NCBI GenBank assembly: GCA_021292105.1
Contig: CM037864.1
Span: forward strand, 40,414,514-40,478,513
Source of the DNA: Anadara kagoshimensis
Lineage: Eukaryota > Mollusca > Bivalvia > Arcoida > Arcidae
Reading direction: 5' to 3'
Length of the DNA stretch: 64,000 nt
Part shown: piece by piece, positions 7,284 to 31,939 of the stretch
Layout of the letters: each line of letters opens with the position of its first letter
Position numbering within the stretch: position 1 is the first letter of the stretch
The notes under the pieces: model-generated
Databases searched by the model: none
What the model was told of the DNA's origin: nothing
Seen by the model: only the letters and a program-made list of their open reading frames with translations
Made by a program: the position numbers and the translations under genes

Positions 7284-7327
7284 TGTATTATTTGCATGTG
7301 ATTTCAGGGGGTGAAATTATTTAGAAA

Positions 7328-9756
7328 ATGGACCAAAACTGTAGCATGTGCCCATTTTTTTCAGAGGACTGCAATGAATTCATTAGGCATCTTCTTAAAA
7401 GACATAGAAACGCAGCTAACTTCATTGTTCACTGTGATTTATGTGGTGCATCATTTAAGACTATCGCGTCATTTCGTACTCACTGTGGAAAAAAACACCC
7501 GAATAGGTTATTGGAAAACACAAACTTTGATAACCAGAATGAAGGCGCTTTACAGGATGATCCCCAGGAGGAAAATGTTGAACAAGAGGATCAATCGTTG
7601 TTAGAGGGAGCTTTTCTTTTAAAACTAAAAGCGGGACATAACTTAAGTCAAAATGCTGTCCAGGAAGTATTACAATCAACTAGATTGATAGTTAATGAAA
7701 AACTAGAAATAGTAAAGAGTCGATTAATGCAAAACTTACCTCAAGAAACTCGCGAAACGCTAAACCTTAACGAGTTATTCAATGTCGATTTATTTTTTAA
7801 TCTTGAAACTGAACATAAGCAAAATAGCTTCTTTGAGAAACGGTTTGGTTACATTAAACCAAAAGCAGTCAAACTCGGAGAAACCTTCGTAAATAAAAGA
7901 TTTAAAGGTCATGTTAAGACCAGGATAACTGATGTTTTTGGATATTACGTTCCATTTCTGAGTCAGTTAGAACAGCTATTGAATATGCCTGAAATAATCG
8001 AGTATCTTAGTTATGATCACTTAGATAATAACCTAATGACGAATGTCATGGATGGCTTGTATTATAGATGTGATGAGTTCATTTCTCGAAACAAACCCCT
8101 TGTGTTTGCGATTTACACGGATGATTTTGAAATTGTTAATCCAATTGGATCACACAGAAAGAAACATAAACTTTGTATATTCTACTGGGCTCTTCTTAAT
8201 ATTCCCCCTGAACACAGATTCAAAGTCCAAGCCATTCAGTTGATGGCAGTTGCCAAATCACAGGATGTTAGGAAATTTGGAATTAAAAACTTGACCCATA
8301 ATTTTGTTAGTGATATGAATGCATTGTATGATGGATCAAGTTTATGTGTTAATGGCGTGGATAAAACTTATAAAGGAAAACTTTTGTTTGTTCTTGGGGA
8401 CACTTTAGGCGCACAAATGATAGGGGGTTTTAAGGAAGGGGTTGGTACAGCAGAAAAACCGTGTCGGACGTGCGAAGTGTCTAAAACTGACCTAGATAAA
8501 AGTTTTTGTCATGAGGATTTTGTTTGTAGAGACGAACAAGAGCACCGTGATAGGTGTTCCACACTTTCTGAAATAAGTAAAGGTGCTAAAAAGTATTGGT
8601 CAGTAAGATATGGTATAAGCAGCAGAAGTGTTTTATTAAATTTAGTTGATTTTGAGGTAACAAAATGCATACTGCATGATCCTATGCACGTTCTGTTAGA
8701 GGGCATAGTGCGGAAGGAACTATTACTGATTTATACGTTTTTATTTTCAAAAACAAATATTTTACATTGAAAACTTTGAACAATGCAATTCAGAATTTTC
8801 AGTACAGTCAAGATGAAATGAACGATAAACCAGAGAAAATCAGTAGGAAAGAGATAAAACAAAGAAAGCAGATATCTCTCTCAGCTGCTTCAATTAAAAT
8901 TCTCATAAATTTGCTACCGCTTATGATTGGCCATTATATACCAGAAAAGGATAAACACTGGCAAAATTTCATCCGCCTCATTCAAATAACAATGCTGTGT
9001 ACATCTGCTGTAGCTTCAGAGACGACGATAGCATCTCTGAGAATTTTAATAGCATCCCATAATCGCCAATTCAAGATTTTGTATCCTGACGTTGCATTCG
9101 TTCCAAAACTACATTACTTGGTTCATTTTCCTAATCAACTTCGGTTATTTGGTCCATTACGCAACCACTGGTGCATGCGTTTTGAAGCAAAACACAATGT
9201 TTTGAAGTCAAAAAAGTGGAAAAATTTCAAAAATCTTTCAAAATCGGTTGCTGATCAACATCAGAAATGGATGTGCTTACAACAAATTGGCATTCGGGGC
9301 GAAAAATCTCACGCTTATCTATACGCAGGTGATACTGTGCAAGATGGTCAAGTGAATCCTGCAAGTGAAGCACTTGGAAATCTTTACAATAAATTGGTTG
9401 AGAAAGAACCAGGAATTTCTAAAACCGACGACTTACTTCAGTGCAAGCACGTGAACATTAAAGGAAAAAATTATAGAGTTGGGACGGTTTTGCTGCGTAC
9501 TTGGAATAACTTTGAATATCCAGACTTCGTAGAAATTTCAAATATTTTCATTTGTAATCATGCAAAATTCTTTCATTGTGAAGTTTTAGGCGTTATTGGA
9601 TTTGAAAGTCATTTAAACGCGTTTGAAGTGAAAAAAACAAATGAAACTGTGCTACTGACTTTGGATGAAATTACATATAAGTTTCCCCAGATAACTCATA
9701 ACGTCACAGGCAAAAAATATGTCATGCTCGAAAACGTAGACGACGCATGGATATAA
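7328..9756 (+). CDS. Tnp2-like (CACTA-type) transposase with N-terminal C2H2 fingers, one frameshift
   Basis: ATG 7328 has a good context (AAAATGG) and follows an in-frame TAG. It lies 22 bases after a CAG acceptor at 7305. Residues 5-26 and 36-57 are two C2H2 fingers (C-x2-C-x12-H-x4-H). From residue 260 come IYTDDFEIVNPIG, LLNIPPEHR, LGDTLGAQMIGGF, a CRTC knuckle and LHDPMHVLLEGI. These resemble the acidic catalytic blocks of plant Tnp2 and match multi-copy uncharacterised proteins of fish and cnidarians. Likely catalytic acids are D265/D266, D358 and D451. The frame breaks near 8755-8767 and resumes in another frame, with LNNAIQNFQYS, FVPKLHYLVHFPNQLRLFGP and NHWCMRFEAKHN, to the stop at 9754-9756. 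The pieces together are about 800 aa, a normal length. The gene lies wholly within an intron of the SAM gene on the same strand. It presumably catalyses excision and integration of the element; this copy looks inactive. Confidence 0.85.
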
Positions 9757-15712: not shown

Positions 15713-16692
15713 CATATATAATATGTCAAAGCCAAGATGCGTGTCATTGTGCGAATCCACATGTAAATGAGAAAGCCAAAATTTTTGGCATTGTACGAAT
15801 CCACATGAACATGACAAAGCCAGAATGTGTGGCATTCTACGAATCCACCACATGTATATGACAAAGCCAAAATTTGTGGCATTGTACGAATCCACATGTA
15901 AATGACAAAGCCAGAATTTGTGGCATTCTACGAATCCACCACATGTATATGACAAAGCCAAAATTTGTGGCATTGCACGAATCCACATGTATATGACAAA
16001 GCCAAAATTTGCGGCATTGCACGAATCCACCACATGTATATGACAAAGCCAAAATTTGTGGCATTGCACGAATCCACCACATGTATATAACAAAGCCAAA
16101 ATTTGTGGCATTGTATATCCACATGTAAATCAGGGGCGTAGCTGGGGTGTTTATAATGTGGACGCCTAAAGAGGGCAGGGGGTTTTGGGGCCTCCCTGAT
16201 GCAAATTTTCGGCCCTCCAGGGCGCTATTTATCAGAATTTTTCTTATAATTTTATGTTATGCTGTGGTAGTGTTTGTCGTTTCTTTGAGGACTTGTTCAT
16301 TCTTAAACCTGAAGACGAGGTACAAGGGGATCTGATGTTGTATGGCATAAGCACTACGAAAACAACACACTCAATAATTGAGAAAGTCAAGTTAAAATGG
16401 GAGTTCAATTAATATAGTGGTGAGGTTAAACGGGGGAGAGGAAATATATTTGTAAATATATTGCGTTAATACATAATAAAACGTGACGAATGGCTAGTAG
16501 AAATTCTTTAATGTAATCAAATCAGATAGTTTCAATTGTTTTGCCATGCCGGCAAAGTCAAGACAACACCGGAACCGCACCTCAGAGGCTATCGAAGTCG
16601 GGTATAAACCGAATTCGTATATAACATTTCCGGTAAAGACCAACGGTTTGGTATAAGAAATATATTATATTCTCTCTCTCTCTCTCTCTCTC

Positions 16693-16731
<39 letters not shown>

Positions 16732-17098
16732 AAAAACGATGTGGACGTTTTTGCGTACAAACGTACGCCTGGCTACGCCCCTGTAAATGACAACAACATA
16801 ATTTGTGACATTGTACGAATCCACGTGTATATGACAAAGCTAAAATTTGTGAAATTGTACGAATCCACATGTACATGTATATGGCAAAGCCAAAATTTGT
16901 GGCATTGCACAATGCCACATGTATCTGACAAAGCCTTAATTTGTGGCATTGGACGAATCCACATGTATATGGCAAAACCAAATTTGTGGCATTGCACGAA
17001 TCCACGTGTGTTTGACAAAGCCAAAATTTGTGACATTGTACGAATCCACATGTATATGACAAAGCCAAAATTTGTGGCATATACTGTGCGAATCCACA
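15713..17098. repeat. 44-bp minisatellite in two blocks
   Basis: About 16 units of a 44- to 47-bp repeat built on CACATGTATATGACAAAGCC then AAAATTTGTGGCATTG. Block one is 15713-16130 and block two 16784-17098. The 47-bp variant carries a doubled CCA. All long open frames here (for example 15704-16124 on the minus strand) are by-products of the repeat. Confidence 0.95.
16131..16783. mobile_element. hAT-like non-autonomous element inserted in the minisatellite
   Basis: A 653-bp insert with perfect 12-bp terminal repeats, CAGGGGCGTAGC and GCTACGCCCCTG. The CAGGGGCG start is typical of hAT elements. TAAAT flanks both ends. The unit sequence CACATGTAAATGAC is restored if the insert is removed. 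Five clear flank bases are fewer than the usual eight for hAT, so the class is likely but not certain. Inside lie a (TC)n run and a (T)n run of about 34. No transposase is present. Confidence 0.8.
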
Positions 17099-18370: not shown

Positions 18371-18424
18371 AGGCGAGTGGATAGATTAATAATTAATCGA
18401 TTTGGGCTTTACGTCGTTTTGTTG

Positions 18425-19100
18425 TGTTCTTGGTTAAGAACATTTGTCATTCGTTTTGTTGTGTCGCGTTCTTGGTTGAACATTTGTCATTCGTTTTGTT
18501 GTGTCATGTTCTTGGTTGAGAACATATACCATTCGTTTTGCTGTGTTATGTTCTTGGTTGAGAACATATACCATTCGTTTTGCTGTGTTATGTTCTTGGT
18601 TGAGAACATTTGTCATTCGTTTTGTTGTGTCGCGTTCTTGGTTGAACATTTGTCATTCGTTTTGTTGTGTCATGTTCTTGGTTGAGAACATATACCATTC
18701 GTTTTGCTGTGTTATTGCTTGGTTGAGAACATATACCATTCGTTTTGCTGTGTTATGTTCTTGGTTGAGAACATTTGTCATTCGCTTTGTTGTGTTGTGT
18801 TCTTGGTTGAGAACATTTGTCGTTCGTTTTGTTGGGTCGTGTTCTTGGTTGAGAACATTTGTCATTCGTTTTCTTGTGTCATTTCTTGGTTGAGAATACA
18901 CCATTCGTTTTCCTGTGTTATGTTCTTGGTTGAGAACATATACCATTCGTTTTGCTGTGTTATGTTCTTGGTTGAGAACATTTGTCATTCGCTTTGTTGT
19001 GTTGTGTCCTTGGTTGAGAACATTTGTCATTCGTTTTGTTATGTTGTGTTCTTGGTTGAGAACATTTGTCAATCGTTTTGTGGCGTCGTGTTATTATATC
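18425..19100. repeat. 42-bp minisatellite with higher-order structure
   Basis: About 16 units. Each starts GTTCTTGGTTGAGAAC, which can fold as GTTCT/AGAAC around TGGTTG. Two main types alternate: A has CATTTGTCATTCGTTTTGTT and B has CATATACCATTCGTTTTGCT. A shortened A unit lacks GAGAA. The order A, short A, B, B occurs twice in a row, which shows duplication of a four-unit block. Degenerate units continue to about 19520. As 42 is a multiple of three, long open frames appear on both strands and are not genes. Confidence 0.95.
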
Positions 19101-24916: not shown

Positions 24917-25240
24917 GAGTAATGAAGTTTAACGTCCCAGTCAAGAATATTTTACTTATATCGCGACATCGTCAGCTATAGCCGAAGGTGCAGCAATTCT
25001 GCCTATGCGTTGCGCTGATGGCATTATACAACAGTGTTCTTTATCGTGCTAAGCCCACCAAGACACGGGACCTCGTTTATTTTAAGTTCCCATCCGAAAA
25101 AACCGTGACTTTCATTTCGTAATGCCGAGGACCTGGCAAAAGAACAGTCACTACCCACTTTCAAGTATTGGGTCGGGGTTCGAACTCACGACCTCCCACT
25201 ATCGGAGCGAGCACTCTACCAACTGAGCCACCGCAGTGAG
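24915..25240 (-). mobile_element. tRNA-derived SINE, near full length
   Basis: Read on the minus strand, it starts GCGGTGGCTCAGTTGGTAGA (A box) and has GTGAGTTCGAACCCC (B box) about 40 bases later, so the head is tRNA-like. The body has GAGGTCCCGTGTCTTGG, a word I remember from a conserved central region in mollusc SINEs. It ends GGGACGTTAAACTT followed by the CT repeat. The length of about 326 bp fits a full SINE. It is not a tRNA gene because the tRNA-like part is imperfect and is followed by a SINE body. Confidence 0.85.
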
Positions 25241-31540: not shown

Positions 31541-31571
31541 TAATTACATATTATACCAGTTTTATATTTAC

Positions 31572-31617
31572 AGCACTAGACGGCCGTTTCGGAATACAAT
31601 TCCTCGTCAGTAGTGCT
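31572..31617 (-). ncRNA. Type I hammerhead ribozyme with minimal stem III
   Basis: Read 5' to 3' on the minus strand: AGCACTA (stem I), CTGACGA (core), GGAAT-TGT-ATTCC (stem II hairpin), GAAA (core), CGGCCG (very short stem III), GTC (cleavage triplet), TAGTGCT (stem I partner, 7 of 7 paired). All catalytic core bases of the hammerhead consensus CUGANGA...GAAA...NUH are present. Cleavage is expected after the C of GTC, opposite plus position 31579. A stem III of only about 2 bp is characteristic of hammerheads in Penelope-like elements and retrozymes, which are thought to act as dimers. Confidence 0.85.
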
Positions 31618-31910
31618 TGGACCAAAATTATGAAACCAAAATTATTTTGATGATGTTGAAAAGATACCCAAAGGACCAAAATATATTTTACCAAATTAAG
31701 CTAAGAAAATACTTTGCATGAGGAAGTATACCTTAGTTTTTGAGAAATTTCAAATTTTAACTTGCAGGAAATTTAGACAATTATAGTATATTTCTGACAA
31801 TAATACGAAATTATTGCCTACTGAGTTTGTGATATCCTCGGGGCACCAGCCACCAGCAGAGATATCGGCTCAGGGGTTTAAATTACATATTATACCAGTT
31901 TTATATTTAC

Positions 31911-31939
31911 AGCACTAGACGGCCGTTTCGGAATACAAT
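31911..31939 (-). ncRNA. 3' half of a second hammerhead ribozyme
   Basis: Has the stem II 3' part, GAAA, CGGCCG, GTC and TAGTGCT, identical to the full copy. The 5' CTGACGA and first stem I strand are absent at this border, so the unit begins or is cut here. Confidence 0.75.

Follow-up and report, generated by a model that had tools for sequence, protein, structure and literature searches.

The locus described here raises the question of how a short element that carries a self-cleaving RNA motif, and in which no coding capacity is apparent, is copied and inserted into a genome. It lies in a window of 64,000 nt (the whole stretch of DNA that was analysed) on contig C8 of the 1,115-Mb genome of the bivalve Anadara kagoshimensis, the assembly of which contains 19 chromosome-size contigs (C19 measures at least 60 Mb); the GC content of the window is 28–35% per 4 kb. 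The insertion amounts to 1.17 units (398 nt). Its flanks are unrelated to those of other insertions of the family, and its 3′ end point is the same as theirs in the sampled copies. Throughout, the unit is numbered from m1, the first base 3′ of the predicted cut, to m339, the last base 5′ of the cut. The 339-nt unit holds no frame of at least 110 aa (stop to stop) in the open-reading-frame listing.

A ribozyme and a half

Read on the minus strand, the 5′ strand of stem I (AGCACTA, 31617–31611) is followed by CTGACGA (31610–31604), stem II with its loop (GGAAT-TGT-ATTCC, 31603–31591), GAAA (31590–31587), stem III in the form C(GGCC)G, GTC ending at 31579 and finally TAGTGCT (31578–31572). The initial annotation had recognized here a type I hammerhead with a stem I of 7 bp and a stem II of 5 bp, and this is borne out both by a full-model alignment of Rfam Hammerhead_1 (RF00163) at 31616–31573 (30.1 bits, E = 2.4e-5 in the 701 nt searched) and by a structural hammerhead scan that returns one match in the window and none in 200 dinucleotide-preserving shuffles. 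The score of 30.1 bits lies below the RF00163 gathering score of 34, so that a default Rfam scan of the window lists nothing. The core reads CTGACGA in the window copy, compared with CTGATGA, which is commoner in the family; the difference falls at the position usually called N7, which is variable in hammerheads. As judged by eye for the immediate stem, stem I runs over 7 bp without a bulge; canonical type I hammerheads have an internal loop in stem I that contacts loop II.

The same annotation had noted an identical 59-bp segment 339 bp away that holds the 3′ half of the ribozyme, and two exact copies are indeed found, at 31542–31600 and 31881–31939. The upstream copy, read from 31939 to 31881, starts within stem II and is devoid of CTGACGA and of the 5′ strand of stem I. 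Instead of two ribozymes, the locus holds a complete one and the 3′ half of another, and it is a 5′-truncated insertion, not a clean two-ribozyme unit. The proposal that two cut sites bound one monomer consequently stands as regards the 339-nt unit between the predicted sites and has to be amended as regards the ribozymes, only one of which is complete, the upstream site needing a dimer-type fold (Table 1).

Folding predictions indicate what such a fold would look like. The lowest-energy structure of the monomer is not the hammerhead (−13.9 kcal/mol, versus −8.9 kcal/mol for the hammerhead fold). Two copies joined via the palindrome ACGGCCGT are predicted to form a double hammerhead at −36.7 kcal/mol, compared with 2 × −13.9. 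The 398-nt RNA of the window (−83.9) is predicted to take up the dimer-type fold in cis, with helix III formed by the upstream and downstream palindromes and helix I by the pairing of the upstream TAGTGCT with the downstream AGCACTA. Both exact palindromes are kept in 14 of 19 copies of 385–450 nt, one being missing in the other five; where both are present, helix III is predicted in 14/14 and helix I (stem I) across the unit in 10/14. With this predicted layout, even a copy that has just one and a half ribozymes may be cleaved at its upstream site. The circle shows no unusual degree of structure (z = −1.36; 13 of 100 shuffles are as low).

Table 1 The insertion and its parts, in window coordinates
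Feature	Position	Strand	Remarks
Whole retrozyme insertion	31542..31939	-	398 nt = m318–m339 + m1–m339 + m1–m37
Single 339-nt unit, m1–m339	31579..31917	-	GC 0.336; bounded by two predicted cut sites
Complete type I hammerhead ribozyme	31573..31616	-	Rfam RF00163, 30.1 bits; 0 hits in 200 shuffles
Predicted cut site of complete ribozyme, after GTC	31578..31579	-	From the sequence, by hammerhead rules
Upstream predicted cut site	31917..31918	-	Predicted to be served only by the dimer-type fold
5′ partial copy	31881..31939	-	Ribozyme 3′ half + 37-nt tail sequence; 59 nt identical to 31542–31600
Upstream palindrome ACGGCCGT	31919..31926	-	One strand of predicted 8-bp helix III
Downstream palindrome ACGGCCGT	31580..31587	-	Second strand of predicted helix III
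37-nt tail, m1–m37	31542..31578	-	Ends at the 3′ junction usual in the family

Copies across the genome and their ends

The initial annotation had reckoned with further copies in the genome, and these abound: at up to three mismatches the ribozyme core has 10,819 genome matches (5,464 + 5,355; reversed control, 0 + 0), both as dispersed copies and as tandem repeats with a period of about 339. Viral contigs gave no exact match to the core. Two samples were read. Sample A consists of 40 loci similar to the window copy, which is itself included (40 of 4,681 candidates were scored), and contains two pairs of duplicates recognized by common flanks (L015/L019 and L032/L040). Sample B consists of 40 regions over consecutive one-mismatch ribozyme matches on contig C1, from 310,542 to 13,135,579 among the matches listed, and yields 46 elements above the score threshold, of which 42 can be told apart by the 3′ flank. 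In both samples, most copies occur singly and dispersed, share their 3′ end and have flanks unrelated to one another. The median span in sample B is 229.5 nt, with more than one unit in 11 of 46 elements and at least 416 nt, room for two ribozymes, in eight; the 1.17 units of the window are therefore a long copy, and a two-ribozyme unit is not the usual form. Tandem arrangements are exemplified by C3:9.335–9.338 Mb, where matches are spaced by about 339 nt or small multiples, and by L041, with five tandem units. Three copies (L044, L049 and L059) have diverged to about 70–90% identity to the window copy and probably represent older sub-families of the same element. Across 38 loci of sample A (without L019 and L032, duplicates or badly aligned), the ribozyme is among the better conserved stretches, with a minor-letter fraction of 0.0144 versus 0.0245 for the rest; 12 of 339 rotations give a value as low.

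The two ends of the copies behave differently. The 3′ end falls at m35–m42 in 39 of the 40 loci of sample A, which were chosen by similarity and include the window copy and the two duplicate pairs, and in 35 of the 42 distinct elements of sample B; in both samples the commonest end is m37, 37 nt beyond the ribozyme cut. The seven remaining elements of sample B end at m12, m19, m27, m28, m29 (two) and m325. The 5′ ends, on the other hand, are scattered in both samples. None of the 86 elements of the two samples has its 3′ end within 3 nt of the cut, and a 5′ end is found there in 1/40 (sample A) and 0/46 (sample B). Because ends at the cut are nearly absent, the insertions are not linear cut units. 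No poly-A or simple-repeat tail is common at the 3′ ends listed for the two samples, nor, given the variable 5′ ends, do these samples contain an LTR pair.

Genome-wide counts tell the same story. The tail m20–m37 has 15,370 matches (reversed control, 6), of which 1,856 (12%) continue to m45, compared with 4,615 matches for a control stretch, m90–m107, of which 2,178 (47%) continue 8 nt further, these four counts being made with one mismatch allowed. Variation between copies is alike near both patterns (minor fractions of 0.0162 at m41–60 and 0.0179 at m101–120 in the 38 loci of sample A). The counts drop away from the 3′ end, from 15,370 tails to 10,819 ribozymes and 4,615 matches at m90, with pattern lengths and mismatch limits that differ. 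Four tails on C1 were read individually: three lie at the ends of copies measuring about 194, 59 and 23 nt, and the fourth reads through.

An ACA target motif was considered and rejected as a likely selection bias. ACA follows 15 of 39 exact-m37 junctions (0.75 expected), by sample 13/24 in A and 1/14 in B, and the query for sample A had included the window flank, which starts with ACAT. The longest word shared between flanks measures 5.19 versus 5.15 in 37 loci (without L013, L032 and L038) and 5.93 versus 5.49 (s.d. 0.11) in 71 insertions, in which shared words of at least 8 number 5 versus 3.5; shared local composition could be the source of this small excess.

When the joined flanks of 72 insertions were compared with the loci read, 119 matches spanned the join, the majority corresponding to a diverged retrozyme in the flank of L044; L005, L022 and L059 were left out of this reading as too diverged or repetitive. 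Three empty sites emerged. For L028, four of four uninterrupted relatives hold 6 nt at the junction that are absent from the filled site, for L030 three of three hold about 11 nt that are likewise absent, and for L064 the single relative differs by 0–1 nt. No target duplication is seen at these three sites, each with a few ambiguous bases because the last letters of the element match the target; the flank words given above, which show no clear excess in the 37 and 71 insertions, are in loose agreement with this. Target-site duplications of metazoan non-LTR retrozymes, when present, exceed 4 bp according to the available text of PMC7229834. The window itself contains at 24917–25238 a dispersed repeat that is uninterrupted in L056, L080 and L006 and interrupted by a retrozyme in L028 and L030; it serves as an empty-site reference.

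Template and mode of insertion

An insertion longer than one unit that was copied from one circle would have overlapping stretches identical at birth. We compared these stretches in the 47 insertions in which 50 or more columns are repeated (without L019, L032, L047, L050, L053, L078 and L079, duplicates or badly aligned), counting as rare the variants present at 10% or less. Rare variants common to both stretches number 53 and occur in 22 of the 47 insertions, with 299 found in one stretch only; when the partner stretch is taken from another insertion, 2.6 are shared on average, with a maximum of 9 in 500 trials. A cruder count (without L013, L019, L032 and L047) gave 78 shared variants against 3.29 expected, one five-unit array being counted repeatedly. 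The repeated 59 nt of the window copy are identical. The signal is erased or absent in many insertions: the own neighbouring unit is unbeaten in 18 of 47 and strictly the closest in 10 of 47, and the 3′ unit is nearer to a unit of some other insertion than to its own neighbour in 29 of 47. The shared variants thus favour a circle at some generation and do not prove one for each copy, since a linear source derived from a circle would transmit the same sharing to its copies.

On this evidence we consider it likely that the element is a non-autonomous non-LTR retrozyme, copied by reverse transcription of an RNA circle from near m37 with an enzyme lent by a Penelope-like element. A genomic copy would be transcribed from the minus strand, and the hammerheads are predicted by folding to cut the transcript into the 339-nt unit, probably mostly as dimers via ACGGCCGT. 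The unit would be circularized by a host RNA ligase, as shown for relatives in the available text of PMC7229834. The reverse transcriptase would then prime near m37, which lies 37 nt beyond the healed cut, a step supported by the junctions, and would proceed backwards across the junction and round the circle with no fixed stop. A fixed start and a variable stop would explain the single usual 3′ end, the ragged 5′ ends and the lengths from less than one unit to several, the window copy being an event halted 59 nt into its second lap. The 3′ ends, the shared variants and the empty sites together favour reverse transcription begun inside an RNA circle, and the junctions point to a common internal start, as would be expected of a parasite of a Penelope-like element. 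Penelope-like elements, as published, initiate internally, downstream of the hammerhead that they carry, and the enzyme would be on loan from one of them.

The template might instead be an uncut linear read-through transcript, in which the enzyme recognizes a site near m37 and multi-unit copies arise from multi-unit sources. An internal 3′ end fits this equally well; moreover, for a Penelope-like element of Anolis, ribozyme mutants left insertion in vitro unchanged, and the authors regard unprocessed RNA as the main substrate (PMC11167929, in its available part). What speaks for the circle is that private variants common to both units (53 versus 2.6) need a unit-repeating step, which a circle provides directly; a linear source that had itself been written from a circle would also hand on this pattern. 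We regard linear copying as rather unlikely. If the element is mobilized by a LINE, as a SINE would be, the LINE reverse transcriptase would have to recognize the 37-nt tail and prime synthesis from a nick in the target. Copies made in this way would have the common 3′ end and ragged 5′ ends that are seen, and LINEs themselves characteristically share a 3′ end and are truncated at the 5′ end. LINEs usually leave a target duplication, however, and the three empty sites without one led us to downgrade this explanation slightly, from rather unlikely to unlikely; initiation away from the RNA end and the lack of a common poly-A or simple-repeat tail at the listed 3′ ends also argue against it.

Two further explanations do away with retrotransposition. 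Ordinary satellite DNA spreading by recombination, with a ribozyme present by chance or for another function, would account for the tandem arrays (C3:9.335–9.338 Mb and the five units of L041). It is very unlikely in view of sampled copies that mostly occur singly and dispersed, between unrelated flanks and ending at one common 3′ point, and of a hammerhead better conserved than the rest (0.0144 versus 0.0245, with 12/339 rotations as low). As for a hammerhead-like sequence arising by chance inside an unrelated duplication, to which the score under the Rfam gathering cut-off might lend some credit, it is refuted by the copy count (10,819 versus 0 in the reversed control), with none of 200 shuffles giving a match, and its probability is negligible.

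Possible helpers and known relatives

If a retrozyme circle is copied by a borrowed enzyme, a Penelope-like element is its likeliest source, judging from the published habit of these elements. In the available parts of the respective texts, the machinery of animal retrozymes is left open, with Penelope-like elements named as a strong candidate (PMC7229834), no conserved motif is reported that would help to deduce the helper (PMC7761336), and the Anolis Penelope-like element is described as starting reverse transcription internally, downstream of its hammerhead, in a manner reported as unseen in other retrotransposons (PMC11167929). A common 3′ junction in so large a family would provide a motif for deducing the helper and makes the question testable. 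This junction, 37 nt past the cut, may be new: among the titles listed in a literature search, chiefly of freely accessible papers, none concerns a 3′ junction common to animal retrozymes, and the available text of PMC7229834, searched by term as well, makes no mention of a usual 3′ junction at this distance. We suggest tentatively, with slightly less than even confidence, that metazoan retrozymes in general are the SINEs of Penelope-like elements, forming RNA circles that are reverse-transcribed from an internal start just past the hammerhead scar and round the ring. If true, this would account for the ragged 5′ ends as well as for the small multimers, and the start site would be a handle on the helper.

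Candidate helpers were sought among GIY-YIG loci, 150 matches being scored of 248 candidates in the genome, at least one of them bacterial. We call Penelope-like those loci in which a reverse transcriptase and a GIY-YIG domain share one frame. Both domains exceed the Pfam cut-off in L099; one or both fall below it in L101, L102 and L103. The GIY-YIG domain precedes the reverse transcriptase in one long frame at L101:2751–5600, the order being opposite in L099, L102 and L103; the L101 order resembles that of the group called Naiad. The best GIY-YIG match of the genome among those scored (L081; G000:C22, about 287804–288031) falls within an open frame for UvrC (UvrC_RNaseH_dom, E = 3.9e-31) in which TGA must encode tryptophan, and contig C22 looks like a mollicute symbiont or a contaminant in the assembly.

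A recent Penelope-like family (L102, L103 and L108–L127; 22 loci) has variable ends: in 10 loci the similarity breaks off no more than 6 nt from one point, 11 continue into a common stretch beginning with TCTATAAAATCC or one letter off, and one stops earlier. These ends resemble the optional tail of Penelope-like elements described in PMC11167929 (available part). Three other Penelope-like families (L083–L100) display, by eye, a hammerhead-like motif 3′ of the frame, CTGAAGA..GAAAGCGCTA. The stem I of this motif differs in sequence among the families and yet pairs in each (3–10 bp), its loop palindrome GCGC is comparable to the GGCC of the retrozyme, and it precedes a (TA)n run by 35–103 nt wherever such a run was found; it has no Rfam score, and two of the three families have a poor stem II. 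The minimal Penelope-like-type hammerhead CTGATGAG..CGAAACGTC, with 121 genome matches (58 + 63; control, 0), was also considered as a sign of the helper and was rejected, the one locus read (L104, two matches) being a changed retrozyme, GAAACGTCCGTC. No tail or ribozyme sequence shared by the retrozyme and the Penelope-like elements was found in L081–L103; the strong retrozyme matches in Penelope-like loci are nested retrozyme copies and the others are short and weak. Any link between the two would be one of mechanism, not of homology.

The element fits as a new member of the metazoan non-LTR retrozymes, which are described in the available text of PMC7229834, and in passages of PMC7761336, as having type I hammerheads, circles of 170–400 nt and Penelope-like elements as suspected helpers. 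The retrozyme identity proposed in the initial annotation is supported by these descriptions: the hammerhead is of type I (with an RF00163 score below the gathering score), the unit of 339 bp falls within 150–450 bp, the GC content of 0.336 is below 45–50%, and multiple genomic copies include dimers to multimers in a tandem habit. Such retrozymes are also described as devoid of LTRs, primer binding sites and polypurine tracts, as expressed in linear and circular RNAs of unit size with ribozymes that cleave themselves in vitro, and as co-existing with hammerhead-bearing Penelope-like elements; the Penelope-like elements present in this genome include the three families with the hammerhead-like motif seen by eye and without an Rfam score. 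The nearest counterparts are the retrozymes of the mussel Mytilus galloprovincialis (PMC7229834), as compared by their published description. A type I hammerhead, a low GC content and tandem and dispersed copies in the thousands are common to both, no coding capacity is seen in either, and the unit measures about 350–390 bp in the mussel compared with 339 nt here. The mussel ribozymes are described as devoid of most loop–loop contact nucleotides, and the uninterrupted 7-bp stem I suggests the same here.

The weak helix III with a palindromic loop, on the other hand, recalls what the same source describes for amphibians. The type I repeats of newt and axolotl (HHR_Amex1, 330 bp) have a very short helix III with a palindromic tetraloop and work better as dimers; they differ in their vertebrate host, their number (126,247 motifs in axolotl) and the canonical loop contacts reported for them (PMC7229834, available text). 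As to the Penelope-like elements of Frangieh et al. (2024; PMC11167929, available part), they have a hammerhead near the 3′ end, an internal start past the cut and a common genomic tail, as here, whereas they encode a reverse transcriptase and a GIY-YIG endonuclease and start about 85–92 nt past the cut (summed from printed positions) compared with 37 here; no sequence common to the retrozyme and the Penelope-like elements read here was found. The LTR retrozymes of plants (PMC4918200, available part) are similar in being non-autonomous, with a hammerhead and a circular RNA intermediate, and differ in their type III hammerhead, LTRs, circles of 600–800 nt and Gypsy-type machinery (as summarized in the available text of PMC7229834).

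Finally, the window contains tandem arrays unrelated to the retrozyme, with units of about 44–47 nt at 15721–16127 and 16782–17080 and of 42 nt at 18416–19092. At 7325–9756, two open frames (481 and 358 aa) overlap, for which the Pfam matches are all weak (zinc fingers; DUF4218, E = 0.0064). Elsewhere in the genome, all four COX1 matches fall at G000:C4:4487676–4537603, on a chromosome-size contig, with up to nine internal TGA codons; this is mitochondrial DNA within nuclear contig C4, by transfer or misassembly.
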